Shown: positions 32,846-55,591 of the stretch, piece by piece
Layout: each line of letters opens with the position of its first letter
Numbering within the stretch: position 1 is the first letter of the stretch
Assembly (NCBI RefSeq): GCF_000179555.1
Contig: NZ_AECZ01000001.1
Location: 124,001-188,000 of the forward strand
DNA length: 64,000 bases
From: Solidesulfovibrio fructosivorans JJ]
GTDB taxonomy: Bacteria > Desulfobacterota > Desulfovibrionia > Desulfovibrionales > Desulfovibrionaceae
Direction of reading: 5' to 3'
The notes under the pieces: generated by a model
What the model saw: only the letters and a program-made list of their open reading frames with translations
The model's database searches: none
Told to the model about the DNA's origin: nothing
Program-made: the position numbers and the translations under genes

Positions 32846-33192
32846 CCGCCCGCGAACAGTTCGCGGCCGACATCCTGGCCGCCTTGCCGCACCTCTCCGG
32901 TTTCCAGCCGGCCGAATACCGACCCAAGGAAGGCGACCCGGTGGAGACCTACGCCATGGTGACGGACGCGGCGCTGGAAAACGACGGCCGTGTGTACGGC
33001 GAGTATGCCGCCATCCGCGTGCCCATGGCCCATGTCCCGGCCCCGTCGGCGGATGACTGTATCGCCATCGGTGGCGAGGTCTGGGAGTTTCGTGTCAACC
33101 AGGGCGCGAAATTGCGGCGGGAGCGCCGGTTCCCGTTCTGGGTTCTCCAGTGCCGCTTGAAGGGTTCCGTCGGCGTCGGGGGGCGGTCGTGA
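32839..33192 (+). CDS. Head-tail connector protein (FII-like position)
   Basis: 117 residues. The C-terminal strand pattern IGGEVWEFRVNQGAKLRRERR and the position before the Z- and U-like genes fit a head-tail attachment protein. No decisive motif is visible. It overlaps neighbours on both sides by 4-7 bases. Confidence 0.55.
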   Translation: MVTAREQFAADILAALPHLSGFQPAEYRPKEGDPVETYAMVTDAALENDGRVYGEYAAIRVPMAHVPAPSADDCIAIGGEVWEFRVNQGAKLRRERRFPFWVLQCRLKGSVGVGGRS

Positions 33193-33887
33193 GCAAGGCG
33201 TTCCTGCTCCAGGAGTCCAAGGGCTTCAAGGGGGGGCTGGGCTTCGCCTATTCCTTGTCCGAAAGCCCCTATCTCGCCGACATCCTGTCCAGCTCCGATC
33301 CGGCTGTGCGGCGTGTGGCGCTCAAGGCGCTCAAATCCACGGGCTGGATGGTGCAACAGAATTGGCGGCTGTGGTTCAACGCGCCTGGGTGGGCCGCGAA
33401 TTCCCCGTTGACCAAGGCGCTCGGCGGAAAGCGGACCGGGCTCAAGTTTCTGCGCCAGTTCGTGCGCTACAAGGCTTTCAGCGACCAGATGGCCGTGGCC
33501 ATCGGCTTCGGCAAGGGACGCAGCCGCGCCAAGAAGTTGTCCGACGGCTACACCGGCGTGGGCATCACCGGCCTGGTGGCCGACAGCCTGCTCGGGGCCG
33601 ATCCTGTCGTCACCTACATCGCGTCCAAGGCCGAATACGGCTGGCACGGGCAGGTAACGGACAAAATGCGCCGCTTCGTGGCTTCCAAGACGCGCGCCCG
33701 CTCCAAGGCCAAAAAGCCCAAGGTCGGCCGCAACTTCTACGCCCTGTCCAAGGACAAGGCCGTCATCGACGTCCCGAAGCGCCCTGTGGCCGCGCCCTAT
33801 TTCGCGCGCATCACGCCGAAGATCCCGGCCTATTTTCTCATAAAATTCAACAAGAACTGGCGCGAGCTCATGGGGGCAACAGCATGA
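33189..33887 (+). CDS. Minor tail protein Z-like
   Basis: 232 residues from a GTG overlapping the previous stop. ALKSTGWMVQQNWRLWFN and the C-terminal RPVAAPYFARITPKIPAYFLIKFN match the GpZ group of tail-completion proteins. It is basic and would bridge tail terminator and head. Confidence 0.7.
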   Translation: MSKAFLLQESKGFKGGLGFAYSLSESPYLADILSSSDPAVRRVALKALKSTGWMVQQNWRLWFNAPGWAANSPLTKALGGKRTGLKFLRQFVRYKAFSDQMAVAIGFGKGRSRAKKLSDGYTGVGITGLVADSLLGADPVVTYIASKAEYGWHGQVTDKMRRFVASKTRARSKAKKPKVGRNFYALSKDKAVIDVPKRPVAAPYFARITPKIPAYFLIKFNKNWRELMGATA

Positions 33888-34300
33888 CCACGTCGCAACT
33901 CATGGCCGAGCTGCGGTCTCGCCTTTCGAACAGCGCAGCCATCGGGGCCTTTTGTCAGGAGTATTTCGGGAAGAGTCTCACCGTGCTGCGTCGGTACGAC
34001 GACAACGCTCCTCCGAAACCGTCGGACCACCCGTGGATATCGCTGGAGCTTTTGGGCGACCAGAAAAGCAACAAGACGCAGATCGTTGTCCGCACGGTCT
34101 TTATGGTGTGCTCGGTGTGGCGCGATCCGGACGGCACTGCCGATGACGGCGAGGACCGGGCTTCCGATCTGCGGGAATTGGCGGAAAAGGCGCTCATGTC
34201 CCCGGGCCTGGGCAAGGTTGAGGCCGGCGACGATGTTTTCGCCAATGCCGAAGACGGCTGTTTCGACAGCGCAACCACCATCATCATCACCAACAAATAA
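33884..34300 (+). CDS. Tail terminator, gpU-like
   Basis: 138 residues. It sits between the Z-like and major tail protein genes, as U does. The small alpha/beta composition fits the tail-terminator fold, but no signature motif is seen. Confidence 0.6.
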   Translation: MTTSQLMAELRSRLSNSAAIGAFCQEYFGKSLTVLRRYDDNAPPKPSDHPWISLELLGDQKSNKTQIVVRTVFMVCSVWRDPDGTADDGEDRASDLRELAEKALMSPGLGKVEAGDDVFANAEDGCFDSATTIIITNK

Positions 34301-34317
34301 GAAAACGGGAGGCAGAC

Positions 34318-35049
34318 ATGGCGGGCATTCTCGGATCGGGCGACCTTTATTTCGATCGCCAGGACGACAACGGCAACAGCACGGGGCTGCTGCACATCGG
34401 CAACACCACGTCGTTTATGATCACCGAGTCCTCGACGCTCAAGGAGCGCACGAGCAAAATGAAAAAGACCTACGGCCAGACCCTGGATTCCGTGGCCATC
34501 CACGGCGCGCCCAAGGTCTCGTTCACCCTCAACGACCTGATCCGCTCGAACCTGGCCCTCATCCACATGGGCGACGACGCCGACGCGACCCAGGCGCTCG
34601 CGGCCGAGGCGACCAAGATCTTCGCCGTGGAGGATGTCAAGGCCGGCGTCTTTTACGAGCTGGGCGCGGCCGGCGTTTCCATCACCAGCGTCAAGGACGC
34701 CTCGAACGCCGATTTCACCACCTATGAAATGGACGAGGACGGCGGCCTGTTCAAGTTCACAGAGGCCCCAACCGAGCCCGTCACCGTCACCTATTCCGTC
34801 CCGAAGATGTCCGGCTACACCATCACCGGTTCCACCCGCTCTACCATCAAGGGCCGGCTGCTTTTCATCGGCAAGAACCTCGCGGACCAGACCAATATGC
34901 GCGTGGATTGCAAGGAATCGCAGCTCACGCCGAAAAACGGCCTGGACTATCTGTCCGACGACTTCGCCGATGCGCAATACGAGGGCACACTCAACACGCC
35001 GTCCGGCGAAACCTCCCCGTACAGCGTTCGTATGCTGTCCGCCGCCTAA
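34318..35049 (+). CDS. Major tail (tube) protein
   Basis: 243 residues, the usual size of gpV-type tube proteins. The N-terminus ILGSGDLYFDRQDDNG leads into a strand-rich body, and the C-terminal part has GRLLFIGKNLADQTNMR. A good GGGAGG site precedes it. It is directly followed by the tail chaperone genes. Confidence 0.82.
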   Translation: MAGILGSGDLYFDRQDDNGNSTGLLHIGNTTSFMITESSTLKERTSKMKKTYGQTLDSVAIHGAPKVSFTLNDLIRSNLALIHMGDDADATQALAAEATKIFAVEDVKAGVFYELGAAGVSITSVKDASNADFTTYEMDEDGGLFKFTEAPTEPVTVTYSVPKMSGYTITGSTRSTIKGRLLFIGKNLADQTNMRVDCKESQLTPKNGLDYLSDDFADAQYEGTLNTPSGETSPYSVRMLSAA

Positions 35050-35061
35050 CCGGAGCACGCC

Positions 35062-35424
35062 ATGCGGAAATCCAACTCTCTGAAGATCGAGCATCCGAAC
35101 GGCGAAAAGTCCGTGGCCGTCCTGGAAATGACCGTGGCCGACATGCTCGCCGCCCCGTCCATCCTGGGGCTGGTGTGCACCGGCGATGTCGACATGCTGG
35201 TGCTGTCCCTGGCCATGGGGCAGGCCGGCGAGGAAGGCCGGAACCTTCTGCCGAAAATCAGCGACCTGGGCGAATCCATTTCCGAGGTCGGCGGTTCGTC
35301 GCTGCTGCGCATCCTGCGCAAATGGGCCGAGGTGAACACGGATTTTTTCGGCAATCTCCGGACGCTGTGGGAAGCCGTCAACGCCGCGCCGGCAGAAAAA
35401 ACACCCAAGGAACAGGCCGCCTAG
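35062..35424 (+). CDS. Tail assembly chaperone, gpG-like
   Basis: 120 residues, between the tube and tape measure genes. It is helical and acidic. A run of six A at 35396-35401, near its end, allows a -1 shift into the open frame that continues to 35672. Lambda G and GT work in this way on the tape measure. Confidence 0.72.
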   Translation: MRKSNSLKIEHPNGEKSVAVLEMTVADMLAAPSILGLVCTGDVDMLVLSLAMGQAGEEGRNLLPKISDLGESISEVGGSSLLRILRKWAEVNTDFFGNLRTLWEAVNAAPAEKTPKEQAA

Positions 35425-35672
35425 ATTCGCTCGATATTCTGGCCCGGGCCGTGGACCGCCTTGTGCGGCGCGGACACGGCCCGGCCGTGTACGGCTACGG
35501 ATTGTCCTGGTTCATGCGTTGCCTGCGGGCGGCGGAGGCGGCCGATGCGACGGCGCGCAAGGACAAGCTCCTGGAGCGGGCCGGCCGGGCCGTGGACATG
35601 CGGCTGGCCGCCCACGGCAAGGCGGAAACCTTCAAGGATCACGTGAACGATTTACTGCGGGAGGTTGGCTAG
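35397..35672 (+). CDS. gpT-like extension, reached by -1 frameshift from the gpG-like gene
   Basis: About 91 codons with good coding character (ILARAVDRLVRRGHGPAVYG, KDKLLERAGRAVDMRLAAHG) continue in the -1 frame and end at the tape measure start. No ribosome site or convincing start exists for this frame alone. The fused G-T product would be about 203 residues. Confidence 0.65.
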   Translation, partial: KNTQGTGRLDSLDILARAVDRLVRRGHGPAVYGYGLSWFMRCLRAAEAADATARKDKLLERAGRAVDMRLAAHGKAETFKDHVNDLLREVG

Positions 35673-38600
35673 ATGGCGGGCGGTTCCCTGGATATCCTCA
35701 TTCAGGCCAAGGACGAGGCTTCGGCGGTTCTGGAGTCCATCCAGTCGCGCATGTCCGGGCTGGGGAGCCAGGGAGCTTCCTCCTTTTCCAAAATCGACTC
35801 CGCCGCGTCCGCCGTCACCACGCGCCTCAACGGGCTCTATGCCGCCGCCGTGGCCGTGTCGGCGGCCTTGACCGCCGGCAAGTTCGTCCAGGTCCCGGCC
35901 CAGTTCGAGAGCCTTGCCAAACAACTCGAGACGGTCACCAAGTCGTCGAAGACCGCCCAGGAAGGCATGGCCTGGGTGCAGGACTTCGCCCAGCGCACGC
36001 CTTACGAACTGTCCCAGGTCACGGACGCCTTCGTCAAGCTGACCTCCTACGGTTTCGATCCCAAGCAGCTTCTTGAACCCATCGGCAACGCCGCGTCCGG
36101 CATGCAAAAGGAGCTGGACCAGGCGGTGGAGGCTTTCGCCGATGCCACGCGCGGCGAGTTCGAGCGTTTGAAGGAATTCGGGCTCAACGCGTCCACGGTC
36201 GGCAACCAGGTGACGTTTTCCTGGATGGAAAACGGCCAGCAGATGGAGAAGACCGTCACCAAGAGCGCCGAAAAGATCGGCGAGGCGCTTTCCGGCATAT
36301 GGGAGGGCATGTTTTCAGGCGGCATGGAAAGCCAGATGTCGACCTTCGAGGGTCGGCTTTCCAACCTCATGGATGCCGCCACCCGCGACATCCAGCAGTT
36401 CATGTCCGCCGGATTGTTTGAGTCGATCAAGGCCAAGTTGGCCGAGCTTACCGAGGCGCTTGCCGAATTGGAAAAGTCCGGCAAGCTGGAGGAGTGGGGC
36501 CGGATCGCGGCCGAACAGTTCGACAAGATTTGGGAAATCCTCAAGACCGTGGGCAAGGAGGCCAAGGATTTCATTTCGCAGTGGGGCAAGCTGCTGGTCG
36601 CCCTGGCCACGGTGGCGGCGATCACCAAGGCGGCGGGGGCCCTCAGGCAACTCACGTCGATCTTGATGAAATCCAAGCTCGGCATCGCCGGCCTTGTCCT
36701 GGCCGCGCCGGAGCTCATCGACCTGACCACGTCCCTGGCCGTCAAGTTCGACGCGCTCTACAACCCCATTTCCAAAACGAACCGGCTGCTCAAGGACGCG
36801 GCGTATTATCAAAAGCGGGCGGCCGAACAGAATCAGATAGCCGTGGACATGCTCAACCAGCTGATTGCCGCGCAAGGGCAGTCGGTTTCGAGCATGGACG
36901 AGTTCCGCCGCAAGGTCGCCGCCGGCACCATCGTCCTGAAGGACAACGCCGGGCAGATTGGCTTGACCGCCGACCAGTACAAGGCGTTGTCCAAGGAGAT
37001 CAAGGACGCCGGCACGGCCGGTTACGCCTACCTGTCCCAGGTGGCCGACCGCTACGACATGGCCGGCAAGGAAGCCAAGGCCCTGGCCACCACCGAGGGA
37101 GCGGCGGCCGCCGCCGGCCTGGCCGCGCAAAAGGACAAGTACGAGGCCGTGCTCGCCGTGGCCAAGTCCGTGGCCGCTGCCCAGGAAAAGCTGGTCAACG
37201 AATCCGCCGCCAATGAAACGCAAAAGGCGGCGCTCCGCAAGCAGGTCGAACAGGACCTCATGAAGGCCAAGAAGGACGCGCTCACCGACTGGCTGTCGGC
37301 GCTGAAATCCGGCCTGGACGAGGCGCTTGCCCAGGAAAAGCGCTACGCCGAGGAGTCCCGTGAGGCCGGCAAGACCACGGAAGAGAAGCTGCGCGACCTC
37401 AAACGGCAGACCATGACGCAGTCCGCGGCCTACTACGACGAGCTCAAGGTGGCGGCGGAAAAGCTGGCCCAGGCCGAGCAGGAAGCGTCCAAGGGCACGG
37501 CCGAGGGCTACGACAACGCCATGAAGCTGGCCAAGGAGGCGCAAAACGCCTACGCGGCATCGGCTTCGAGCGGCAAGGACGTGGTCGGCCAGGCCCAGGC
37601 CGTGCAGACGGCCATGAAGGGCGTGGCCGACGCCGGCCAGGTCTGGAAGGACGCGGCGGACAAGGGCAAGGACGCCTGGGCCGAAGCGGCCAAGTCCATG
37701 AAGGACCAGATTGCCGAGGTCAAGGCCGAGCTGGCCGACATGCAGAAGTCGCCGCTGTCGCTCAAGGTCGACGTGGACACCGAGGCCGTGGACAAGGCGT
37801 TGGATGCGCTCAACGGCAAAAAGACCGAGTCCGAGCACACCGTTGAACCGGATACAACGGCGGCGCAAAAAGCCATCGCCGAGCTAGAAAAGGATACGTA
37901 CAGCACCCATTACGTCTACGAAAAGAAGGTCGAAGCCTACGCCACGGGCGGCCCGGCGCGTAGCGTCCCGGCCATGGTCATGCCCGGGGAAGTGGTCATC
38001 GATAAGGACGCGGCCAGGGAAAACGCGCCGTTGCTCCACGCCATCAATTCCATGCGGCTTGCCCGCGAGGCCGTGGCCCATTTCGCGGCCGGCGGCGGCG
38101 TGTTCCGGCCGTTTCGGCGAGGACTGGTGCCCGGCGTCGGGAACGAGGATTCCGAACCGGTCATGCTGGATGAGGGCGCGTTCGTGGTGCGCAAGGCGGC
38201 CGTGGCCAAGTACGGCCGGGGCGTGCTGGACGCCATCCAGTCCGGCCGGATGGCCGGGGTGCAGGCCTTTGCCACGGGAGGATTCGTCTGGCCCGACTGG
38301 ATGCGCAAGATTCAGGCGGCCACGGCGGCGGCCCCGGAAACGCCCACCCCCATGACGCCGCAACGTCCGACGCCGCTTTCCGTGGCCGTGTCCGTGCCGG
38401 CGGCTTTTCGCGGCGCGACCACGCCCCTTGCCGCCGCGCCCGGCATGTCCGCCCACGGCGCGGCCGCCGTCTCGCGCCTGGACGGCATCCGCCACGCGGC
38501 GGCCGTCAGCTTTGCCAAAGGCGGCAACCTGGACGAGCAACTCGCGGACATCGCCCTGGAACGCAAGCGCACCCGAGAGGATTACGACGAGGCCGTGTCC

Positions 38601-39911
38601 GACGCCAAGGGCGACCATGACGACCAGCTCGCCGACCTGCTGACCCAAGAACAGGCGGACCTGGACGACATTGCCCAGACCCTGGCCGACACCCTGGCCG
38701 ATCTGCAAGCCGCCTGGGAGGAGGCCCAGGCCGCCTACCAGGAAGCGATCGAGGAAGCCCAGGCGGAAAGCGACGAAGCCCTGGCCGACGCGCAATCCGA
38801 CTACCAGGATGCCATGGACGACGCCCGATCCGAGTACGAGGAGCAGAAGCAGGAACTCCAGGACGCCGTGGACGAGGCTTATGCCGCCTGGCAGGAGAAG
38901 AAAAAGGAAGACAAGATCGAGCACGGCTACACCAAGACCACCATCGGCGCGAACACCATGGGCGGCAAGCCCACCACCCATTACTGGGTTTCGGACCAGG
39001 ACGCCCTGGACGATTGGGAAGCGGAGGTCGAGGAGCTGAAGCAGGCCTACGTTTCCGCGTTGCGCGACCAGAACGCCCTGGGCGGGTTCCGGATTCCGAC
39101 CGATGCCGTGGCCACCCTTGGCGAGGCCAAGGCGGAGGCCAAAACAACCCTGGACGAGGCCACCGGCCAGGCCCTGGCCGACCTTGGCGACGCGCAAAAC
39201 ACCTTTACCGCCGGCACGGACGAGGCCAAGGCCCAGGCCGCCGACGACACCCAGGCGACCAAGGACCAGGCCGAGGCCGACAAGGCCGATCTGGCCGCCG
39301 ATCTGGCCGACACCCTGGACGACCTGAAAAAGGATTTCGACCGGGCCATGGAGGATCTGGATATCGAGGAGGCCCGGGCCCGGGCCGATGCGGACGAGGA
39401 AAAGGGCTATTCCATTTCCGGGTTTTCGCAGTGGCTTTCCTCGGGCGGTCCGGTGGCGGTGCTGGACCGCATCCGCAAATACGCCGCCGGCGGCTGGGCG
39501 GCGCTTTCGGAAAAGCTGCCGCGCTTCGCGGACGGCGGGGAGGTCCCCATGCTCCCGGGCGCGGTGGCCGGCCAGGACAGCGTGCTGGCCAGGGTTATGC
39601 CCGGCGAAGGCATGGTCAACGTCCAGGCCATGCGCTCCATCCTGTCCAAGCGGGCGCTGGACGCCCTCAACAGCCTGGACCTCGAGGGGTTCCTCGGCGC
39701 GCTGCCGCGTTTCGCCGACGGCGGCGTGGTCCCGGGCGGCTCGCTCGCTGCCGCAGCCGCCGCCGTCCCTGACGGTGCGTCCTCCGGCTCCGGTTACACC
39801 GCCACCCTCAACCTGTCCCTCGGCGGCAAGACCTTCGAGACCCGCGCCACCGAGGCCACGGCCATGGCGTTGGCCCGGCAGTTGCGGCGCCTGGGCGGGA
39901 GCATGAAATGA
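35673..39911 (+). CDS. Tail tape measure protein
   Basis: 1412 residues, setting a tail length near 200 nm by the usual rule. The N-terminus LDILIQAKDEASAVL and AQRTPYELSQVTDAFVKLTSYG are typical. Hydrophobic segments lie near residues 310-355. Repeated glycine motifs such as FATGG and FADGGEVP with VMPGEVVI or VMPGEGMV recur near residues 770, 820 and 1300. Residues about 950-1240 form an Asp/Glu/Ala/Gln-rich coiled coil (LADTLADLQAAWEEAQAAYQ). It starts directly after the chaperone stop. Confidence 0.92.
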   Translation: MAGGSLDILIQAKDEASAVLESIQSRMSGLGSQGASSFSKIDSAASAVTTRLNGLYAAAVAVSAALTAGKFVQVPAQFESLAKQLETVTKSSKTAQEGMAWVQDFAQRTPYELSQVTDAFVKLTSYGFDPKQLLEPIGNAASGMQKELDQAVEAFADATRGEFERLKEFGLNASTVGNQVTFSWMENGQQMEKTVTKSAEKIGEALSGIWEGMFSGGMESQMSTFEGRLSNLMDAATRDIQQFMSAGLFESIKAKLAELTEALAELEKSGKLEEWGRIAAEQFDKIWEILKTVGKEAKDFISQWGKLLVALATVAAITKAAGALRQLTSILMKSKLGIAGLVLAAPELIDLTTSLAVKFDALYNPISKTNRLLKDAAYYQKRAAEQNQIAVDMLNQLIAAQGQSVSSMDEFRRKVAAGTIVLKDNAGQIGLTADQYKALSKEIKDAGTAGYAYLSQVADRYDMAGKEAKALATTEGAAAAAGLAAQKDKYEAVLAVAKSVAAAQEKLVNESAANETQKAALRKQVEQDLMKAKKDALTDWLSALKSGLDEALAQEKRYAEESREAGKTTEEKLRDLKRQTMTQSAAYYDELKVAAEKLAQAEQEASKGTAEGYDNAMKLAKEAQNAYAASASSGKDVVGQAQAVQTAMKGVADAGQVWKDAADKGKDAWAEAAKSMKDQIAEVKAELADMQKSPLSLKVDVDTEAVDKALDALNGKKTESEHTVEPDTTAAQKAIAELEKDTYSTHYVYEKKVEAYATGGPARSVPAMVMPGEVVIDKDAARENAPLLHAINSMRLAREAVAHFAAGGGVFRPFRRGLVPGVGNEDSEPVMLDEGAFVVRKAAVAKYGRGVLDAIQSGRMAGVQAFATGGFVWPDWMRKIQAATAAAPETPTPMTPQRPTPLSVAVSVPAAFRGATTPLAAAPGMSAHGAAAVSRLDGIRHAAAVSFAKGGNLDEQLADIALERKRTREDYDEAVSDAKGDHDDQLADLLTQEQADLDDIAQTLADTLADLQAAWEEAQAAYQEAIEEAQAESDEALADAQSDYQDAMDDARSEYEEQKQELQDAVDEAYAAWQEKKKEDKIEHGYTKTTIGANTMGGKPTTHYWVSDQDALDDWEAEVEELKQAYVSALRDQNALGGFRIPTDAVATLGEAKAEAKTTLDEATGQALADLGDAQNTFTAGTDEAKAQAADDTQATKDQAEADKADLAADLADTLDDLKKDFDRAMEDLDIEEARARADADEEKGYSISGFSQWLSSGGPVAVLDRIRKYAAGGWAALSEKLPRFADGGEVPMLPGAVAGQDSVLARVMPGEGMVNVQAMRSILSKRALDALNSLDLEGFLGALPRFADGGVVPGGSLAAAAAAVPDGASSGSGYTATLNLSLGGKTFETRATEATAMALARQLRRLGGSMK

Positions 39912-40291
39912 GCATCACCCTGGACACGCTGCCCCTGCCGGACGACTGCCTGTGGCAAAACGAATTCGACGCGCTGCCCATGGCCGTGGCCACGGCGCGG
40001 ACCCTGTCCGGCCGGCTGGTCGTGTCCGAGACGGCGCTCGCCGCCGGCCGGCCCATTGACCTGGGCGGCGACGACGCCTGGATCGTCCGGTCCGATCTGC
40101 TCACGCTCCATGGCTGGGCATCCACTCCCGGTTGGTCCGGCACGCTGAGGCTCCATGACGGCCGCGCGTTTTCGGTCCGCTTCCGCACCCAGGAAGAAAA
40201 GGCCGTCGAAACGGCGCAGGTGCGCGACACGGCCGATCCGGCCGGCGACGACCGCTACCAGCTCGTGACGTTGCGCCTGGAGACCTGTTGA
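39908..40291 (+). CDS. Tail protein, unassigned
   Basis: 127 residues, overlapping the tape measure end by 4 bases. Strand-rich, with no motif I recognise. Its place right after the tape measure suggests a distal tail component. Confidence 0.6.
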   Translation: MSITLDTLPLPDDCLWQNEFDALPMAVATARTLSGRLVVSETALAAGRPIDLGGDDAWIVRSDLLTLHGWASTPGWSGTLRLHDGRAFSVRFRTQEEKAVETAQVRDTADPAGDDRYQLVTLRLETC

Positions 40292-41163
40292 TGGGCGCGG
40301 CCAAACAAACCATGCTGGTGCGTGTCGGCAAGGACACGGACTGCCCGACGTCGCTCCTGGAATTCCCCAAGCAGGACGTGGACCCGGGCGAGGCCGTGAC
40401 CATCCGCGTCTGGGCTCCCGATCCGGCGCTTTTGACCGGCCTGCGCCTGGACGCCGGGCTGACCTCCCTCGGCACGGGGAGCCCCAACGTCTGGCCCGGG
40501 CAGACCACCTGCAAGTATTTCGACTTTGAGGGCGACAATGAGGCCCAGCGGTTCGACTACCCCGTCACCGGCGTCTCGCGCGTCATCGCCTTCTCGCCGC
40601 TCTACGGCATTTCGGATGCCGGCGGCATCACCACACTGGCCCCGGCCGGGGCGGACATCACCGGGCTTTTCCACCGACGCGGCTATGCCTGTCTGGTCCC
40701 GGCCGCCGGCCTGCCCAAACTCTACGGCACGGTGCATGCCGTGGGCGTTCGCGCGCCGTACTGCCGGGAATGGGCCTGGACCTCGCCGGCCGATCCGCGC
40801 GGCGCGCAGTGGTTCTTTCTCTGGGAGGACGGCGAGCTTACGCACCGCTTTTCCCTGACCCTGTCCGAGGACCCCGACGACACGTCCATCTGTTTCACGG
40901 ACATCAAGATCCGGGTCATCGACCGCCGCACGGCCGGGGCCGTGCTCGGCGCGAATGTGGTGCTGGGCGGCGTCAGCGTCGGCCAGACCGACCAGCGCTA
41001 CGGCTTCGTCAAGGTGTTCCGCCATCTCTCCGGAACGTTTCCCATCGTGGTGACCAAGGCCGGCTACACGGCGTCCAACGCGGACAGCTACACTGACAAC
41101 GACCGCATCACCATCCCGCCGGCCGGCGGGGAAGTGCGCGTGAAAATCGGGGGCTACGCATGA
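40291..41163 (+). CDS. Tail-tip protein with PEGA-like C-terminal domain
   Basis: 290 residues. The first 190 residues are paralogous to the next gene: QTMLV, VDPGEAV, (W/Y)PGQT, CREW(A/R)WT and WFFL occur in both, in order. The C-terminal 90 residues form a separate small domain, IKIRVIDRRTAGAVLGANV, then GTFPIVVTKAGYTA, like a carboxypeptidase-regulatory or PEGA Ig-type fold used for surface binding. It overlaps the next gene by 4 bases. A role at the tail tip is inferred from position. Confidence 0.6.
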   Translation: MGAAKQTMLVRVGKDTDCPTSLLEFPKQDVDPGEAVTIRVWAPDPALLTGLRLDAGLTSLGTGSPNVWPGQTTCKYFDFEGDNEAQRFDYPVTGVSRVIAFSPLYGISDAGGITTLAPAGADITGLFHRRGYACLVPAAGLPKLYGTVHAVGVRAPYCREWAWTSPADPRGAQWFFLWEDGELTHRFSLTLSEDPDDTSICFTDIKIRVIDRRTAGAVLGANVVLGGVSVGQTDQRYGFVKVFRHLSGTFPIVVTKAGYTASNADSYTDNDRITIPPAGGEVRVKIGGYA

Positions 41164-42401
41164 GCGCGGTGCAAACCATGCTGGTCCCGTTCTCCTCCTC
41201 CGGCCAGGAAAACGGCGGCGTCAAAATCGAGGTGACGGCGCAAACCGTGGACCCGGGCGAGGCGGTGCGGCTCTACCTCTGGGGCGCGTCCCCCGACGCT
41301 CTGGCCGGCTACTCCCTGACCCAGGGCGCGGACGGGCTCGGCGCCGGAACGCTGCGCCAATACCCGGGCCAGACCGAGGCGCGCCTGTTCGACCTGGACG
41401 GCACGGACGGCCTGAAATCCTTCGACTGGCCGGTGGTGCGGCTCCTGACCGTGGTCGCGGCGGGGCACTGTTTCGTCGTGGACGGCAATGATGTGAGTGT
41501 CGTCGCCCTGCCCGGAGAGGATGTGACGCGGTTCTTCCGGCTTTCGGGCAATGCCCTGGCCCCGGCGGAAAACGCGCCGAAGCTGGCGGGGTCGGTCCTG
41601 GCCACGGCCGCGCGTTCGGCCTGGTGCCGGGAATGGCGCTGGACCACCCCGGCCAAGCCGGCGGCCGGGTTCCCGGCCGGCACCTGCACCGACGACGAGG
41701 ACGACCGCGACGACACGGCCTACTGGTTTTTCCTGCTGCGCTGGGGCGTGTTGCGGGAAGAATTTTCCATGGAGCTTGCCTGGAACGATACATACCGGGA
41801 TGAAACAAGCGAAGAAGAAGGAGAAGATGAAGACACTTACGCTGTCGTTTTCTGTATAGACACGACGGGGTCGATGTCTGGAGCCATTGAGTCCGTTGTC
41901 GAAGCCCTTGGAGCTTTTTTGAACGAAGCGTCAAGCATGTACCTTAACATAGGTGTTGTGACGTTTGGAGATGAAGTTCCGTATCGACGGAAATTGGATA
42001 TTACCAACAATATCGATATTGTATCAACGTTTTTATCGAGTCTCGAAGGGTTCGGTGGCGCGGACGGCAAGGAAAACCAGCTGGACGCTATCCGGACAGC
42101 ATGCGGAATGTTCGCAGGATACAACAAGAGAGCAATTTGCCTCATAACGGACATTGATTACCACATTGCTGGGGACGGTGGGGATTCGGAAACGGAAGCC
42201 ACTCCTGATATCGTCAATGCAAAATTGGCGGAATACAATGCGAATCTTTTTATAGCTTGTTATGATACCTACGTGACTGGAGAGGGTACAAGCGAAACCA
42301 TACACCCCTATAATCTCCTTACCATGACGTGGATAGGCGACCTAGAAGATATTATGACGGTATTGACGAACAACCTTGTCCGAGAATTGGAGAAAATGTG
42401 A
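41160..42401 (+). CDS. Tail-tip protein with C-terminal von Willebrand factor A domain
   Basis: 413 residues. Residues 1-205 are a diverged copy of the N-terminal domain of the preceding protein. From about residue 225 a complete VWA-like domain follows: VVFCIDTTGSMSGAIESV with a MIDAS-type DxTxS, then LNIGVVTFGD, KENQLDAIRTACG and AICLITDIDYHI. An acidic hinge (SEEEGEDEDTY) joins them. The DNA of the VWA part (about 41790-42400) is near 43 percent GC by eye against about 65 in the flanks, so the domain came from elsewhere. It may bind a host surface ligand with a metal ion. Confidence 0.8.
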   Translation: MSAVQTMLVPFSSSGQENGGVKIEVTAQTVDPGEAVRLYLWGASPDALAGYSLTQGADGLGAGTLRQYPGQTEARLFDLDGTDGLKSFDWPVVRLLTVVAAGHCFVVDGNDVSVVALPGEDVTRFFRLSGNALAPAENAPKLAGSVLATAARSAWCREWRWTTPAKPAAGFPAGTCTDDEDDRDDTAYWFFLLRWGVLREEFSMELAWNDTYRDETSEEEGEDEDTYAVVFCIDTTGSMSGAIESVVEALGAFLNEASSMYLNIGVVTFGDEVPYRRKLDITNNIDIVSTFLSSLEGFGGADGKENQLDAIRTACGMFAGYNKRAICLITDIDYHIAGDGGDSETEATPDIVNAKLAEYNANLFIACYDTYVTGEGTSETIHPYNLLTMTWIGDLEDIMTVLTNNLVRELEKM

Positions 42402-43393
42402 TGCTTGTATCCTCCGAAATCATCATCCGCAAAAGCGCGGTCGTCACCGACACCGCGTCGAACGGCGGCCGCATGAGCAAGCACGCCGTCACGTCGGGCG
42501 CGAACCGCAATTTCCTGCGCGACTGGACCCTGGCCGAGGCGCAAAACGGCGGCACGATGTATCGCAAGTTCTTCCTGCACGCGGCCAATGCCGACGGCCT
42601 GACCTATTCGCAAGCCGGCCTGCACCTGCTCGCGCCCTCGGCTGCGGACGAACGGGTGGCGCTTTTCGCGGGCATGGCCACGGACACCCAGGCCGACCTT
42701 TCCGTCAGCCCGACGACCTACGGCGCGGGGACGTTGCAGGCGGCCGTGGCCGCCGGGGCCACGACTTTCGCCGTGGCGCTCAAGGACACGGACCTCCTCT
42801 ATTTTCACGACGGCGACACGGTGTGTCTCTACCAGGCCGGCGCGGCCACGGACGGCAGCGAAGACGTCTACGAATACCATGACAATATCACCGTTTCCCA
42901 TGCGGCCGGCGTGGACACCATCACCCTGGCCGACGGCGACATGGCGGCCAATGCCTACGCCGCCGGGGACGGCTGCGCCTCGGTGCTGCAATGCGGCGAT
43001 ATCGCTCCGACCGTGGCCATGACGGCAATGACGTCGGCCGCCGGCATTGTGGACGTGTCCGGCATCACGCCCGACGCCATCGCCGGGATCGACCACACGG
43101 TCACGATCACCTTCACCTCGGCCACGGCTTTCTCGGCCGTCTCGGACGTGCTCGGCGCGTTGGGGGCCGGGACCATTGGCAATGCCTTCGCGCCGACCAA
43201 CGCCGATTTCACGCGGCCCTATTTCACCATCGCGGCCAGCGTCTGGAGCGGCACGTTCGCGGCCGGGGACATCGTAACGCTCGGCCAGACGGCGGCGGCC
43301 GCCGCGTTCTGGATGCGGTCCGTGCTGCCGGCCGGGGCGGCCCCGTTTTCCGGCGACGCCTTCGGCCTGCGCGCCATCGGCGGCAGCAACTAG
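42401..43393 (+). CDS. Tail protein, unassigned
   Basis: 330 residues, sharing a base with the previous stop (TGATG). Rich in alanine, threonine and beta-type segments such as VDTITLADGDMAANAYAAG and DIAPTVAMTAMTSAAG. Typical of fibrous distal tail proteins, but no family recognised. Confidence 0.6.
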   Translation: MLVSSEIIIRKSAVVTDTASNGGRMSKHAVTSGANRNFLRDWTLAEAQNGGTMYRKFFLHAANADGLTYSQAGLHLLAPSAADERVALFAGMATDTQADLSVSPTTYGAGTLQAAVAAGATTFAVALKDTDLLYFHDGDTVCLYQAGAATDGSEDVYEYHDNITVSHAAGVDTITLADGDMAANAYAAGDGCASVLQCGDIAPTVAMTAMTSAAGIVDVSGITPDAIAGIDHTVTITFTSATAFSAVSDVLGALGAGTIGNAFAPTNADFTRPYFTIAASVWSGTFAAGDIVTLGQTAAAAAFWMRSVLPAGAAPFSGDAFGLRAIGGSN

Positions 43394-43405
43394 GAGGATG
43401 CGGGC

Positions 43406-43840
43406 ATGGCCATCACCGTCGCGCCCTATGCCGGGGCACTGAAACATTTGCTCTCCGGCGTGAGCTGGGAAACGGACACCGTCAAACTGGCGCTGCTGGG
43501 TTCCGGCTACACCTTTGACGTCGCCCATGCCGTTTTCGCCGACGTGTCGGCAAGCGAGATCGCGGGCACCAACTACAGCCCCGGCGGCCAGGCGCTTTCC
43601 GGCAAGGCGGCGACCCCGGATGGCGCGGGCGGCGTGACGCTCACGGCCGACAATGTGGTGTTCGCCGCGCTGACGGCCAGCGACATGGGCCATGCCGTGC
43701 TCTACATCGCCGGCACGGTGGGTGTCCTGACTGATCCGCTCCTGGCCCATATCGGCTTCGGCACAAATCCGGTCGACGTCTCGGCCGAGGATTTTCCCGT
43801 CAACTGGCGCAGCGCGGTATTCGTCATCGCCGCGTCGTAG
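43406..43840 (+). CDS. Phage tail-associated protein, unassigned
   Basis: 144 residues. The opening ALKHLLSGVSWETDTVKLALL and DVSASEIAGTNYSPGG follow a pattern common in short phage structural proteins of unknown function. Preceded by an AGGA site. Confidence 0.6.
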   Translation: MAITVAPYAGALKHLLSGVSWETDTVKLALLGSGYTFDVAHAVFADVSASEIAGTNYSPGGQALSGKAATPDGAGGVTLTADNVVFAALTASDMGHAVLYIAGTVGVLTDPLLAHIGFGTNPVDVSAEDFPVNWRSAVFVIAAS

Positions 43841-43849
43841 GAGACACCC

Positions 43850-44209
43850 ATGGCAGTCACCAAAACCGCACGCACGCTTCAGGCCCCGGCGACCAATGCG
43901 GCCGGGGCCAGCACGACCGGCTCCGCGATCGATCTGACCACAGCGCTCGGACTCTCGGGCACGCTGCAAATCACCAACGGGAGCACGGCCCCGACGGTCG
44001 CGTGTACGGCCTACATCGACGTCAGCAACGACGCCGGCACGACCTGGCGGCAATGGCTGGCCATCACGGCCGGGCTGACGGCTTCGACGGCGTACACCTA
44101 TCCTTTTTCGCTGCCGGCCGAGATCCTGTACGCTCGGGCGCGATTTGGCGGCAATACGGGCCAGGGCGTGACCGTGGAATGTCTGGGCCACGAGCTGACG
44201 AGCGTGTAG
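43850..44209 (+). CDS. Phage tail-associated protein, unassigned
   Basis: 119 residues, threonine- and alanine-rich and strand-like (LQITNGSTAPTVACTAYIDV, then SNDAGTTWRQWLAI). It sits between the small tail gene and the large LamG-hub protein. No family recognised. Confidence 0.55.
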   Translation: MAVTKTARTLQAPATNAAGASTTGSAIDLTTALGLSGTLQITNGSTAPTVACTAYIDVSNDAGTTWRQWLAITAGLTASTAYTYPFSLPAEILYARARFGGNTGQGVTVECLGHELTSV

Positions 44210-44212
44210 TCC

Positions 44213-46387
44213 ATGTCCGGCGTCTGGCAATGCCGTCCCCCGCTAGGGACGCCCATAGACTGGAGCAATCCGCTCACGCGGGGGCTGGCGACGTTCATCG
44301 ACGCGGCCGGAGACCGCGTGAACGGCGCGCCGCTCACGCTCATGGGCGCGGCCGTCAAGCGCGAGGACGGCGCCATCTATTCCCCCGGCGGATCGAGCGA
44401 TGGGGCATACGTTCCGTTCGCCCCGGGTTTGCTCAATGTCGGCCTCGACGCGACGATCATTCTTTTTGCCAGGGTAACGGCGCTGGTGAACACGTCCGCC
44501 CTGGTTTCCGTCCCGCACAACGCGAGTTGGTCCAGTCCCTGGGGCGCTTTAACCTTGCAGCGCAACGGCACAAACTCGGCCTTGCGATTCACTGTGGGCG
44601 ACACTTCCTACGGCGGCGTGGATTCGGTCAGCGGCTTTTTCTATGTAGAAGACGACGTGAGTTGCTATGCCGTTTCGAGGGAAAACAGCGATGTTTTCTT
44701 TTATAAAAACGGGATAGGGTACGCCGCCGGCACTACCGAAGGCGTCGGCTTGAGCAATCGTTCGCCCAATTTTGCGAACAGGCAACGCATCACGATTGCG
44801 AATCGTTGCAGCACCGCTCCCGGGGAAGCCGCCGGGGGCATTTTTCTGCCGGCCCTCATCTACCCAAACAGGGCCTTATCGATCGAAGAACTCAACGCGA
44901 TCCGAGCCAACCCCTGGCAGTTGTACGCGCCACGCCGCACGGTATTCTTCTTTTCGGAATCCTCTCCGGAGGTCGCGGCCGGTCCGGCGACATTGTCCTT
45001 CTTGCTACCTACGCCTCTGGTCCCGGTGGCCACGCGCGGCACGTCCCGCCGATGGTCGGTCAAGCGGCTGATCCCGGTCGGCCGGGACCTCGCCGTGCGT
45101 CATCTGGCCCCGGGCGTGGTGGCCGATTACGCGGCCGCGCACAGCGTGGCCGGATGGGTACGGCGGTCCTTCGCCGCCGCCCATGCCGTGCCGTCCATGG
45201 TGGCCGGGGTGTTTCGCGCGCGCCATGCCGTGCTCGAGGTCAACCCGGCCAGCCGCCAGTGGACGTCGCGCCACGGCATCCCGGCCGACACGGCCATCTT
45301 TCGGCCGGCGTCCTGGTCGGCCGTGTTCGACGACGACGGCTCGTCCCTGGACCTCTCCGGCGCAAACATCACCGGGGACCGCGAATCCTATGCCTGGAGC
45401 GTGGACCTGACCTTGCCCGACGCCGAGGCCTGGGCCGACTGCACGCCCGGACGCCGGCTGACGCTGACCGTCTCGGGCCAACCCTTCGCCCTGGTCCTCG
45501 AGGGCCGGACCCGGGACCGCGCCGCGACCTCCGCCGAATGGACGGCCACGGCCCGTACCGTCTCGTGCCTGCTGGGCGAACCCTACGCCGCCGCATTGTC
45601 GCAGTCCTGGCCGGAGACGACCGCCAGCCGGGCCGCGTCCGAGTTGGCCGGGCTGGCCGGGCTGTCCTGCTCATGGGAGGTTTGCGACTGGACGTTGCCC
45701 GCCGGCAGGCTGACGGCGGACGCCGAGACGCCGGCCTCGGTGCTGTCCCGGTTGGCGCAAAGCTGCGGCGGTATGCTGCAACCCGATCCGGCCGGCGGCG
45801 TGACGGTGCGCTACCGCTACCCGGTCGGCGTGACCGAATACGCGGACGCCGCGCCCCGGGCCGTGCTCACCGCCGCCGACGCCGTGTTGACGCTCTCCGA
45901 AACATTCAGCGCCCAGCCCGGCTACGACGCGGTCACGGTGGTGGACAACCGGGCGGCGGCGGACGGCTGCCTGACCTGGGAGCTGGACGACGACCGCAAC
46001 GCCGGCCGCGACACGTTCCCGCCCGGGAGCCCTTGCTATTTCCGCGTGTACCACGAGGTGGACTACGCCGTGCGCGCCACCTCTGGCACACTGGAACGGA
46101 TTGCCGTGGACGAGATGGAGCGCCTGACCGAGACGGTCGGTTTCGACGACGAGGACACGGCGGACCTGGACAAGCTGGTGGCGGCCGTGGATGCGGTCGT
46201 GTGGTGGGGGACGGACCTTGGAGCCGTCGCGCCCAACGGCGGCGCGAACGTGCTGCTGTCCGGCGGCGCGGGGTTTTCCGTGGCCGAGATCACCTACCGG
46301 ACGCGCTACGACGTGTGGAAGCTGGTCCCGGCGGCGCTCGGCGAGGCGTTCCCGGTCATGCTCGAACTGGCGGAGGTAAGCGCATGA
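44213..46387 (+). CDS. LamG-type domain fused to a tail-hub-like protein
   Basis: 724 residues. Residues about 1-245 form a concanavalin/LamG-like domain, ending in the typical LSIEELNAIRANPWQLYAP. A linker with repeated AAAHSV/AAAHAV and RH(A/G) motifs follows. The C-terminal 400 residues have RDRAATSAEWTATARTVSCL, GVTVRYRYPVG and EITYRTRYDVWKL, like baseplate/tail-hub proteins. It probably combines carbohydrate binding with a structural hub. The DNA around 44600-44760 is less GC-rich than the flanks, again suggesting module exchange. Confidence 0.6.
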   Translation: MSGVWQCRPPLGTPIDWSNPLTRGLATFIDAAGDRVNGAPLTLMGAAVKREDGAIYSPGGSSDGAYVPFAPGLLNVGLDATIILFARVTALVNTSALVSVPHNASWSSPWGALTLQRNGTNSALRFTVGDTSYGGVDSVSGFFYVEDDVSCYAVSRENSDVFFYKNGIGYAAGTTEGVGLSNRSPNFANRQRITIANRCSTAPGEAAGGIFLPALIYPNRALSIEELNAIRANPWQLYAPRRTVFFFSESSPEVAAGPATLSFLLPTPLVPVATRGTSRRWSVKRLIPVGRDLAVRHLAPGVVADYAAAHSVAGWVRRSFAAAHAVPSMVAGVFRARHAVLEVNPASRQWTSRHGIPADTAIFRPASWSAVFDDDGSSLDLSGANITGDRESYAWSVDLTLPDAEAWADCTPGRRLTLTVSGQPFALVLEGRTRDRAATSAEWTATARTVSCLLGEPYAAALSQSWPETTASRAASELAGLAGLSCSWEVCDWTLPAGRLTADAETPASVLSRLAQSCGGMLQPDPAGGVTVRYRYPVGVTEYADAAPRAVLTAADAVLTLSETFSAQPGYDAVTVVDNRAAADGCLTWELDDDRNAGRDTFPPGSPCYFRVYHEVDYAVRATSGTLERIAVDEMERLTETVGFDDEDTADLDKLVAAVDAVVWWGTDLGAVAPNGGANVLLSGGAGFSVAEITYRTRYDVWKLVPAALGEAFPVMLELAEVSA

Positions 46388-46713
46388 GACTCACGGTGAC
46401 GCGCGGCGACGGGGTATCCCCCGCGCCGGACGAATTGACGGCGGAGCTGGCCTGCTCCGAAGCCCCGGCCACCCAGGCCGGGCGCAATTACCTGGACGAG
46501 TACGGCCAGGACGCGGCCGAGGTCGACGTCACGTGCATGCCCGAGTCGTCCGTGGGCGTGCTCCTGCCCGGTGAACTGGTGGAGATCGACGACGGCCCGG
46601 CGGCGGAAACCTGGCGGGCCACGGTGACCGGCATCGAAATCACCCTTGCCGTGGCCGATTCCGGCGCGGCAACGCTGACGCAAACCCTGACCGTGGAGCG
46701 TCCCCTTGAGTAA
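46384..46713 (+). CDS. Small tail protein, unassigned
   Basis: 109 residues, overlapping the hub gene by 4 bases. Acidic, strand-rich. It ends in overlap with the next gene. Confidence 0.6.
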   Translation: MRLTVTRGDGVSPAPDELTAELACSEAPATQAGRNYLDEYGQDAAEVDVTCMPESSVGVLLPGELVEIDDGPAAETWRATVTGIEITLAVADSGAATLTQTLTVERPLE

Positions 46714-46978
46714 CGCCCTGGCCCAACTGCGCCGCGTGGTCGCGCCGGCCCCTCGCCGTCGCGCCGCCACCATTGTCCGCATCCTGGCCGGCGGCCGGGT
46801 GGAGCTGGCCGTGGCGGCCGACACGTCCGGCACGGCGTCCACGGCCGGGGCGACCGCCGCCCGACCGGAGGTCTACTGCGGCGTGACCGTATCGGTCGGC
46901 GACCGGGTGCTTGTCGAGGGCGACCGGGTGATCAGCCGGCTGGCCCGGGAGGCGGGGAGGGCGGTAAGGATCAAATAG
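46706..46978 (+). CDS. Small tail-end protein, unassigned
   Basis: 90 residues from a TTG that overlaps the previous gene by 8 bases. The pattern RAATIVRILAGGRVELAV ... YCGVTVSVGDRVLVEGDRVI looks like an OB-type small barrel. It closes the plus-strand late operon. Confidence 0.55.
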   Translation: MSNALAQLRRVVAPAPRRRAATIVRILAGGRVELAVAADTSGTASTAGATAARPEVYCGVTVSVGDRVLVEGDRVISRLAREAGRAVRIK

Positions 46979-47303: not shown

Positions 47304-48155
47304 CTAATAAAACAACACTTGAACATCCTGAGATAATTTTTCTTTGGGAGAGGCGTCTGTGACTACACGATCCGGAAACATTTTAGACAACTCACCCTGG
47401 ATGCTTTTGACAATATTTTCCCCTCGTTTATCATATATTATACGGATTGTGTTTTTGGCCATTTTGTCTCCTGACTCTTCAAGGGAGGAAAGGATATTCG
47501 AAGACTGAAACCCCTGCTTTGTCAATAAAGATGTGGCAGACTGTGAGTCTGTTAATTGTCCATCAACATGATATACAAAGACTTTGTAGTTCGAATTGCT
47601 TGCAATTTCATTAAGTTGGGCTACAGCGGTCTGTATTTTTTTATCTGTGCCGGACTGTTCAAGGCCTTGCGCTGTTGACTTTGTTAAACTAGAGGTGACG
47701 TCCAGTTGACGCTTGGCACTACTAATCTTGCCATCAATATTCTGAAGGGATTCTTCTATTTCTTTTGTTTTTTTGTTTAAGGTCATAGACAACTTGCCTA
47801 TAGTCGATTTTGTTTCATCGTCAAATGCCTCTATCGAACTCCTTATTTTCTCCATTCTTTTATGGGCATCTTCTGCGGCTATTTCAGCTTTAAGAGCGGC
47901 ATTTGATGCTTGTAGTGTTGCAGTTTCAATCCCAGACATTCTTTCTTTCATCATGCTTGTGAAGATTTCTTTCACCATGAATGTCAATCCAAATAAAGAA
48001 ATGATCGTAACAACAATACCCCATAATTTGAATTTTTTAAACGCCCAATTTTCTATGTCATATTTGATTTCCTCCAGTATTTTAACTCTAAGGACACGTT
48101 CATATTCATCGAGTGACATTCCAATTCTTTTTTCTTGATCGTTAGCCTCGGACAT
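47304..48155 (-). CDS. Membrane-anchored coiled-coil protein of unknown function
   Basis: 283 residues, AT-rich DNA. A membrane helix lies near residues 45-68 (LWGIVVTIISLFGLTFMV). Residues about 70-165 are a coiled coil (AALKAEIAAEDAHKRMEKI). The C-terminal part (NYKVFVYHVDGQLTDSQSA, then RIIYDKRGENIV) is a small alpha/beta domain. It is the first cargo gene after the tail operon; a role in phage exclusion is possible but unproved. Confidence 0.7.
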   Translation of the reverse strand: MSEANDQEKRIGMSLDEYERVLRVKILEEIKYDIENWAFKKFKLWGIVVTIISLFGLTFMVKEIFTSMMKERMSGIETATLQASNAALKAEIAAEDAHKRMEKIRSSIEAFDDETKSTIGKLSMTLNKKTKEIEESLQNIDGKISSAKRQLDVTSSLTKSTAQGLEQSGTDKKIQTAVAQLNEIASNSNYKVFVYHVDGQLTDSQSATSLLTKQGFQSSNILSSLEESGDKMAKNTIRIIYDKRGENIVKSIQGELSKMFPDRVVTDASPKEKLSQDVQVLFY

Positions 48156-48359
48156 GGTGATCTTCCTTTGTTAAGTTTTGTTTCTTAAATAAACTCTGAT
48201 AATAAGTTAGTTGTGGTGGTGCTGGTGTATGAGCCTCCACGAGGAGGATACCACTGTCGGATATTATATCAACTATAAAATATAAAAATACAATAAAAAA
48301 ATCAGCAAACGATTACAAATAGATATCAAAACGAGACAAGGGCGTGTGGGAAGGTTGGC
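48156..48359. other. Cargo boundary with hairpin and an 18-base repeat
   Basis: This AT-rich gap contains GTGGTGGTGCTGGTGTAT (48213-48230), present again with one change at 55541-55558, followed by a hairpin CCTCC-ACGA-GGAGG (48234-48247). No gene is seen. Confidence 0.45.
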
Positions 48360-48788
48360 TTATTGACCGATGGTCCGCTGGATGCGGATGACGACACCAT
48401 CAAAATCCTGACGCAACTCATGTTCCCAGATACGTAGCACCTGCCAGCCGGCCGCTGCCAGTTGTGCAGTGACCTCGGCATCACGGGAGACGTTGCGGGA
48501 AATCTTTCTTTCCCAGAAATCATGATTTGTTTTCGGCATCCGGAAATGTTCCGGACAGCGATGCCAGAAGCAGCCATCGACAAAGATGGCAAGCCGGCGT
48601 GAGACGAAAACGATGTCGGGCCTTCCGGGCAGATTGTGCCCGATGCGGTAACGGAGGCCGAGGCTCCAAAGCTTTTTCCGGAGCAGTAATTCGGGCTTTG
48701 TGTTCCTGCCCTTGTTGGCGGCCATGCAACGCCGGCGCTGTTCCTCTGTGAGGACATCGGTCCGTTCGTCGCTTTCGGCCACGGTCAT
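48360..48788 (-). CDS. vsr: Very-short-patch repair endonuclease
   Basis: 142 residues, the usual Vsr length. Motifs are complete: KGRNTKPELLLRKKLWSLGL, LPGRPDIVF, IFVDGCFWHRCPEHF and PKTNHDFWERKI. It nicks beside T:G mismatches left by deamination of 5-methylcytosine, so it is the usual partner of m5C methyltransferases. The start overlaps the end of the nuclease-like gene as ATGA, so the three genes form one unit. Confidence 0.95.
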   Translation of the reverse strand: MTVAESDERTDVLTEEQRRRCMAANKGRNTKPELLLRKKLWSLGLRYRIGHNLPGRPDIVFVSRRLAIFVDGCFWHRCPEHFRMPKTNHDFWERKISRNVSRDAEVTAQLAAAGWQVLRIWEHELRQDFDGVVIRIQRTIGQ

Positions 48789-49903
48789 TCCTCGTCATCA
48801 TCGGACAGACTGATCGGAATTTCATCACCGAAGGGCAGGGACTCCGGAGCGATGGACACGCCGTCCGGGGTGACACCGGCCGGCAGATCTCCGAACACCC
48901 GGATCAAAGAGGTCGCGAAACCCGACAGGTCTCCGGCGATGCGGAGTCTGGCAGTCCCTTCTTCCAGGCCGTAAATCCGGTAGAGGTCATAACGCCGGCC
49001 CTCGTCGGCCATTTCCAGAAGCTCGGCCATGGAAACGTGCAGGGGGCGCTCGAACGGCCCGGTGGTGGATTTGACATCCAGACGGATTTCATTGCCGGCT
49101 GCATCCACGAGGGTGAAGTCGTAGGGTGCGACAGCGTTGGCATCGGAAATCCAGGTATATTCCCTGACCAGGCCGGCCCGCTTCTGCTGTCCGAGCCAGG
49201 CGTCAATGAGCGCCTCCCCGTCACGGCCGAGCGTCTCGGCATTCTGTCGGGCACGCTGCAATGTCTCCCGGGTCATCATGGTGCCGGAACGACGGCGGAA
49301 CAGCCGTTCCGTACCTTCAACCCCTCCCAGGGCGGCGTCCTCGATCGCCCCTCCCAGGGTGAACTCCTGGGCCGGGTGATCATCCGGCAGCGCGGCCATG
49401 TCGATCAGGGTTTCCAGTTCAGGGGCCGTGAAAGGAACCATCCGTTTGGGGCCGAGACGATTTTCCAGGAGGGCATGAAGCGGGGCATCTGCCGCAATCG
49501 CGGCAGCGACAAAGAGAAGACGGGCGGAAGTGGGGATGATGTCGCCTGAGAAGTCAAAGATGACAAAATCGCCCTGGGCAAGAGGGTCGAATCGGTCCGC
49601 CGTGACAGCCGTCGGGATGATCTCGCCGTTGAGCCGCCAGTTTTTGTAGCTGCCGCCCTTGATGATCTTGCGCTGCAGCCGCAAAGCCCCATGAAGTCCC
49701 GGACCAAGAAGCAGGAGATCCAGGCCGAGATAGCCGGCCTTTCCCTCCTCGGTCTCGGGCAGCGCGGGGAACAGCTGCTTGACGAAGACATCGGCATTCA
49801 GATTGATGGATTTCTGCTTTCCCGCGTGTTGGAAGGCCAAATGGTGCTGAAAGATCGTCAGGTCCGAACGGGTCAGGCGTTTCAGGGCGATTTTACCGGA
49901 CAC
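48785..49903 (-). CDS. Restriction-nuclease-like protein with DUF3883 domain
   Basis: 372 residues. The C-terminal half has GEALIDAWLGQQ ... YDFTLVDAAGNEIRLDVKSTTG, a PD-(D/E)xK-type core with D and DVK, as in DUF3883. The N-terminal half (AFQHAGKQKSINLNADVF, then GLDLLLLGPGLHGALRLQR) may be the specificity part. It lies between an m5C methyltransferase and vsr, with overlaps of a few bases, so it is the probable restriction nuclease of a type II-like system. Confidence 0.72.
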   Translation of the reverse strand: MSGKIALKRLTRSDLTIFQHHLAFQHAGKQKSINLNADVFVKQLFPALPETEEGKAGYLGLDLLLLGPGLHGALRLQRKIIKGGSYKNWRLNGEIIPTAVTADRFDPLAQGDFVIFDFSGDIIPTSARLLFVAAAIAADAPLHALLENRLGPKRMVPFTAPELETLIDMAALPDDHPAQEFTLGGAIEDAALGGVEGTERLFRRRSGTMMTRETLQRARQNAETLGRDGEALIDAWLGQQKRAGLVREYTWISDANAVAPYDFTLVDAAGNEIRLDVKSTTGPFERPLHVSMAELLEMADEGRRYDLYRIYGLEEGTARLRIAGDLSGFATSLIRVFGDLPAGVTPDGVSIAPESLPFGDEIPISLSDDDEE

Positions 49904-49904
49904 T

Positions 49905-51377: not shown

Positions 51378-51599
51378 CCAGGAGTCTCCGGGGACACAGC
51401 CGGGGGCGGAATGGCTGGTCCTGATCCGGAAGTCGGATAGCATCGGGGAAGGCCGGAGTCAAAACGTGGCGCAGGGGACCGGCAGGCCACAGGGACGGAT
51501 GATCTGATCAGCCACGCTTTGACTCGTCAGCCTGTGCCCGGGTACCAGGATAGCCAGGCCGCAGCCGAGGGGAAAAACTTCCAACAGTGGGCATATCCG

Positions 51600-52574: not shown

Positions 52575-52814
52575 CAGAAAAAAGTATGCCGGTTCTGTGT
52601 TACGCTAGACAGTAGTTCAGAAAAGAAAGCAATTCGCAGTTGGCAATTTCTACTCTGGGGTCCCTCAACTAAAAATACCGCAGGACCATGTTGATTGGAA
52701 AGGGGGGGGCGATGGCATGCAACAGTCCCGTTGCTATTCGTGACAGCTTAATGCTTTATTGGTTTTAAAATGGACAGCCAATCAAAAGTTTTTAAAAATT
52801 TGTATGAATTGTTT
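52575..52814. other. Non-coding gap between HNH-HIT and TIR genes
   Basis: No gene is seen. An ATTGG/CCAAT short inverted repeat at about 52757-52783 lies downstream of the TIR gene on the minus strand and may be a weak terminator. Confidence 0.3.
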
Positions 52815-55301: not shown

Positions 55302-55591
55302 TGGAAAAACCTTGTACTTTGCTGATGTTTGCTAGGTATGATTTGGAAATATTTGCCTAGTGCTATTCAATATTTTCCTTTACGGAAAGTTTATTGAATT
55401 TCATAGAGAAATACAGTGATAAATTCATTATAACCTTTCCCAAAAACTGCCCCATCTTTCAGAGCCTTGTCCGGATCCTTCGCATGCAGGCCGCAGCTCT
55501 TGGTACACAATATAACAATTTAATTGTTTCGCATTTCTTCGTGGAGGTGCTGGTGTATTTAGCTACAGGTTTTTGTGTCTAGTTTATATGG
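55302..55591. other. Gap with degenerate repeat and 18-base cargo repeat
   Basis: Contains GTGGAGGTGCTGGTGTAT at 55541-55558 (see 48213) and a stretch at 55436-55500 similar to 56443-56530. A short rightward frame exists at 55394-55582 but has no ribosome site. Confidence 0.4.

Follow-up and report, generated by a model that had tools for sequence, protein, structure and literature searches.

Two paralogous tail-module genes in a Solidesulfovibrio fructosivorans prophage: a shared N-terminal domain with one fixed C-terminal end and one exchangeable end that includes a VWA domain

The window investigated here is a stretch of 64,000 nt of Solidesulfovibrio fructosivorans (contig NZ_AECZ01000001.1, 124,001-188,000), and all coordinates are positions in this window unless a contig is named. 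It carries a prophage, which is also represented by a viral contig (L003). The head module of this prophage is lambda-like and comprises a terminase (PHROG 15), a portal protein (PHROG 21), a protease (PHROG 53), a decoration protein (PHROG 49) and a major head protein (PHROG 29); a major tail protein is encoded as well. No sheath gene was noticed among the genes annotated, which represent part of the prophage. The tail-module features described below are all located on the forward strand. The tail tape measure gene (35673-39911; Pfam TMP_3, E=3.9e-12; PHROG 973, E=2.4e-32) is followed by a gene for a small conserved tail-module protein of 127 aa that belongs to the PHROG 4408 family (39908-40291; E=9.6e-31), and then by the two genes that are the subject of this study, gene 1 (40291-41163; 290 aa) and gene 2 (41160-42401; 413 aa). 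The first conserved gene past them is related to PHROG 6128 (gene 3, 42401-43393; E=3.4e-19), and further downstream a hub-like tail protein is encoded (44213-46387; PHROG 6079 tail protein, E=1.5e-27), of which the core is conserved and the N-terminal part is variable. Gene 1 and gene 2 are thus part of the tail module, downstream of the tape measure gene and upstream of the gene for the hub-like protein. They overlap by four bases (ATGA), and the stop codon of gene 2 overlaps the start codon of gene 3 (TGATG).

A defence-like island adjoins the tail module (47304-58198), with genes for a Vsr nickase, a C5 cytosine methylase, a NOV_C protein, an HNH-HIT protein, an AT-rich TIR-NLR (PADLOC, E=1e-175) and an HSDR_N protein. 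An AT-rich gene at 47304-48155 gave weak matches to the ZorA and PDC-S26 models, and a gene at 62185-63366 matches the N-terminal domain of the DNA polymerase III beta clamp (PF00712, E=1e-5).

The proteins encoded by gene 1 and gene 2 are homologous over residues ~1-200, with an alignment score of 305 compared to a mean of 34 and a maximum of 55 for shuffled sequences; in a genome search the two N-terminal parts were 39% identical (E=3.5e-28). A preliminary description of this DNA had placed a common N-terminal domain of 190-200 residues in two adjacent genes, and both the domain and its coordinates proved correct. In gene 1 the domain spans aa ~1-195, while in gene 2 it is encoded by 41160-41771 and is proposed to be a virion anchor. 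A profile of this domain matched PDB entries at chance level only, and its predicted structure is beta-rich, with no confident match to any single domain; neither a fold nor an anchor relative was assigned.

The end of gene 1 (aa ~200-290) did not match any Pfam family when the window copy was searched alone. Its homologues match PEGA and CarboxypepD_reg, with the copy in L013 reaching 22.1 bits for PEGA against a cut-off of 20.8. The AlphaFold2 model of gene 1 (pLDDT 82.7) places the end close to CnaB2 and to the transthyretin-like domain of carboxypeptidase D (TMt 0.66-0.67, predicted structure). Taken together, the homologue above the PEGA cut-off and the modelled fold uphold the earlier reading of this end as PEGA-like, and the model identifies it as a predicted CnaB/transthyretin-like, Ig-like domain.

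In its C-terminal part, gene 2 encodes a genuine VWA domain, as had been proposed, a type of domain that also occurs in adhesion proteins, with matches above cut-off to both VWA_2 (PF13519; E=5.6e-10, 40.3 bits, cut-off 27) and PF25106 (31.7 bits, cut-off 27). It is joined to the N-terminal domain by an acidic linker. The metal site consists of DTTGSM (D-x-T-x-S; aa 234-239, 41859-41876), the loop GGADGKENQLDA (aa 299-310, 42054-42089), in which a D/E form replaces the canonical Thr, and LITD (aa 328-331) within LITDIDYH (42141-42164). The only other VWA copy found, in contig L017, has DTTASM at the first motif, and both copies keep D-x-T-x-S and the third Asp together with the D/E-type loop at the Thr position. 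Judged from these residues, most of which are retained, the metal site seems to be nearly canonical. When an AlphaFold2 model of gene 2 was searched with Foldseek, the VWA part matched domains of the integrin I and VWF A3 type (TMt up to 0.66, E about 1e-6), in agreement with an alpha/beta VWA fold; the model has low confidence (mean pLDDT 67.6) and is weakest in this very part.

Base composition changes abruptly within gene 2. GC content is 0.695 over 41160-41789 and 0.461 over 41790-42401, compared to a window mean of 0.617, and near 41790 the third-position GC drops from 0.88 to 0.48. The drop in GC reported previously is therefore real and sharp, although the 43% given for the VWA part was slightly low.

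Outside the window, both genes were found together at seven loci in phages or prophages. Five of these lie on viral contigs from metagenomes (L004, L005, L017, L020 and L021; L006 is a duplicate of L005) and two in genomes of the host's family (G041, a Desulfovibrionaceae bacterium whose locus corresponds to L013 and L028, and G088, corresponding to L014 and L022). All known hosts are Desulfovibrionaceae. The pair was absent from the remaining sampled genomes of the genus, family, order and phylum; an initial scan of genomes that used gene 1 by itself had returned no relatives, and none were found for gene 1 in annotated phages. Because both copies are present in every locus, the duplication is old. 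Compared to L004, dN/dS is 0.16 for gene 1 and 0.23 for the N-terminal domain of gene 2, which shows that both genes are under purifying selection and are maintained by it. As the family is small (eight loci), the modules reported below represent a minimum of the actual range, and the tree is based on few taxa.

The two genes differ in how their ends vary among these loci. Gene 1 is conserved at full length with one fixed type of C-terminus in all eight loci (pairwise identity 48-92% across gene 1), and it was therefore rejected as a participant in exchange. Across the same eight loci, the N-terminal domain of gene 2, on the other hand, is followed by C-terminal modules of at least four unrelated kinds. 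The VWA end is present in two of them, the window and L017. In L004 the end is a module of ~130 aa, in L005 it is a different module of ~260 aa, and one further, related module type occurs in L020, L021, L022 and L028. No convincing relation was detected between the L005 module and the type found in L020, L021 and L022, and a search of the viral contigs with the L004 module returned only L004 itself. By-eye readings as DUF2135-like (L004) and LamG-like (L005, L021) are not claimed, since the L004, L005 and L021 modules gave no Pfam match even at E=5. Of seven loci in which base composition was measured, five have a C-terminal part that is AT-rich relative to its own N-terminal part.

In L020, L022 and L028 the module of the fourth type is split over two adjacent ORFs, while L021 carries one intact copy followed by one split copy. 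Comparisons among the second halves of the split modules show that they are related (z 13 to 54), and the one from L022 is also related to the intact copy (z 7.5). The split falls at a similar place: in L020 (6870-8297) the frame continues past a stop codon, in L022 (6855-8271) the ORFs overlap, and the corresponding region of L021 is 6864-9016. A two-chain assembly or recoding is possible for these split modules.

An exchange can be followed in L004, the closest relative, whose DNA is 88% identical to the window over 33148-46973 (~14 kb) except for two blocks, 41772-42400 and 43423-45067. Similarity stops at 41771, and the first block is exactly the end of gene 2: it comprises the acidic linker and the VWA domain (VWA_2; GC 0.46), has no similarity to L004 and is flanked by sequence that is 88-89% identical, the N-terminal domain of gene 2 being 87% identical at this comparison. 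This is a clean replacement of a cassette at the C-terminus of gene 2. In the tree, which contains few taxa, L004 is the sister of the window phage (bootstrap 97 for the concatenated genes, 95 and 83 for the single genes), yet the counterpart of the window's VWA domain (63% identity) is found in L017, which is more distant, so that at least one swap must have taken place after the family was formed. The second replaced block contains a PHROG 644 gene, a gene for a 119-aa protein and the N-terminal region of the hub-like protein. In L005 this region is a PPC domain (PF04151, E=8e-16), and other loci have other sequences there. A diversity-generating retroelement was considered as a source of the variation and rejected, given that the whole genome gave no match to the reverse transcriptase family PF00078 and that the pattern is one of whole-module replacement and not of point variation.

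The preliminary description had further suggested that the two neighbours carry exchanged C-terminal domains and form a plug-in system, and had proposed to list the C-terminal partners of the shared N-terminal domain. Such a listing gives several partners for gene 2 and a single fixed one for gene 1. With at least four modules and the clean replacement in L004, gene 2 is not tied to one C-terminus, and for this gene exchange across phages and a plug-in arrangement stand; for gene 1 they do not, its end being fixed and the duplication old.

Related siphophages help to place the pair within the tail module. Marinobacter phage AS1 (MK088078) and LR797314 likewise have a PHROG 4408 gene 3' of the tape measure gene, and there the PHROG 6128 genes come directly after it, so that gene 1 and gene 2 represent an addition to the tail module that is specific to their lineage. 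In AS1 the PHROG 6128 genes are annotated as “tail fiber”; they share the position of gene 3 behind the tape measure and PHROG 4408 genes and correspond to it. Since siphophages such as AS1 lack both gene 1 and gene 2, the two genes are not core tail parts.

Based on these results, gene 1 and gene 2 are proposed to encode paralogous minor tail proteins of a temperate Desulfovibrionaceae siphophage, with gene 2 as a virion adhesin that combines a conserved anchor with a swappable binding module; we give this reading a probability of roughly 0.6. Both proteins would probably be located at the tail tip, into which the shared N-terminal domain most likely docks. Gene 1 would carry the fixed Ig-like (CnaB/PEGA-like) end, while gene 2 would display the exchangeable module on its acidic linker, in the window phage a VWA domain that may bind a metal ion. 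Lineages may swap this module through recombination in conserved flanks, namely the end of the anchor domain and the start of the next gene, and the replaced stretch, which runs from the one to the other, fits such a mechanism. The imported modules, often AT-rich, would come from elsewhere, and a change of module by recombination is proposed to change the surface structure that is bound by the phage. It is also conceivable, as a tentative extension, that the paralogous pair forms a display socket, made up of a fixed copy and a second one that serves as the cassette site for unrelated adhesion modules, with the VWA domain acting as an integrin-like, metal-dependent adhesin that sets host range.

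Other roles for the variable end were weighed against the adhesin reading. Gene 2 could be a virion protein whose end is a decoration that loosely binds polysaccharide, biofilm or mineral near the host and does not determine specificity as a receptor binder. The modules encountered here are indeed binding folds of a general kind (VWA, the PPC domain of the L005 hub-like protein, the CnaB-like end of gene 1), the variable front block of the hub-like protein could be the real specificity determinant, and related siphophages manage without either gene. On the other hand, the end has been exchanged cleanly, repeatedly and at a single point, and most imports differ in base composition, which would be typical of host-range modules; we regard a mere decoration as rather unlikely.

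The AT-rich VWA part inside a GC-rich operon also recalls cargo, which AT-rich inserts in prophages often are, and the end of gene 2 might accordingly be an accessory product, such as a surface or exclusion factor expressed during lysogeny, that merely lies within the tail operon. This is improbable in view of its in-frame fusion to a domain that is conserved and subject to purifying selection, of the start codon overlaps of gene 2 with both neighbours, and of the retention of the fusion at the same point in every locus. Many intracellular bacterial VWA proteins function in the assembly of complexes, and the VWA domain could likewise act in tail assembly, making metal-dependent contacts between proteins within the particle instead of binding cells. 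Against this, L004 carries an unrelated module at the same position in a tail module that is otherwise 88% identical, which makes it unlikely that VWA is required for assembly as such; we consider this role very improbable.

The VWA domain itself is scarce among the phages searched. Its relatives among the viral contigs searched were restricted to the window phage and L017; none were found in annotated phages or, by sequence, in the PDB, and the searches returned two weak partial matches in genomes of the order and one 31% match in plasmids (Natrinema). The partial literature searched did not contain a phage tail adhesin with a VWA domain, and a VWA protein of Vi01-like phages has been grouped outside the structural genes (PMC10892097). 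That VWA domains are rarely described in phage tails is supported to this extent, but a 2026 catalogue lists VWA among the tail-fibre domains of extracellular contractile injection systems (eCIS), which have conserved anchors and varied ends (PMC12923769). As proposed for gene 2, these fibres possess a conserved N-terminal anchor (eBAP, at the baseplate) and horizontally exchanged C-terminal binding modules, and the partners of eBAP4 include VWA and carboxypeptidase-regulatory domains, as in gene 2 and gene 1. The eCIS are contractile, whereas the phage described here is a siphophage, and the likeness lies in the general domain arrangement.

A second parallel is the Streptococcus sanguinis pilin PilB, which is built of two modules, one of them a grafted vWA, and shows metal-dependent adhesion (PMC8179133). 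In both PilB and gene 2 a metal-site VWA domain is grafted onto a filament subunit for display, with a tip position proposed. PilB belongs to a type IV pilus, and both its canonical metal site and its adhesion have been shown by experiment, whereas for gene 2 metal binding and adhesion are predicted. Modular receptor-binding proteins of tailed phages, for instance those of Klebsiella phages (PMC8262889), similarly join an N-terminal structural module to an exchangeable C-terminal specificity module; theirs are capsule depolymerases, while here VWA and other modules sit on one of two paralogues encoded in the tail module of a siphophage.

A conserved anchor with an exchangeable end is a phage strategy that is already known. 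In the present case, however, a comparison of two phages that are 88% identical locates the boundary with nearly single-base precision, a fixed partner copy adjoins the exchanged one, and the module is a metal-site VWA domain known from only one other phage contig among those searched. The near-base boundary, the rare VWA domain and the fixed partner together offer a clean test of whether VWA serves phages as an adhesin. If true, a VWA adhesin displayed on such a socket would be the phage counterpart of the VWA-grafted pilins, and the set of modules carried by gene 2 may hint at the surface structures of sulfate-reducing bacteria.
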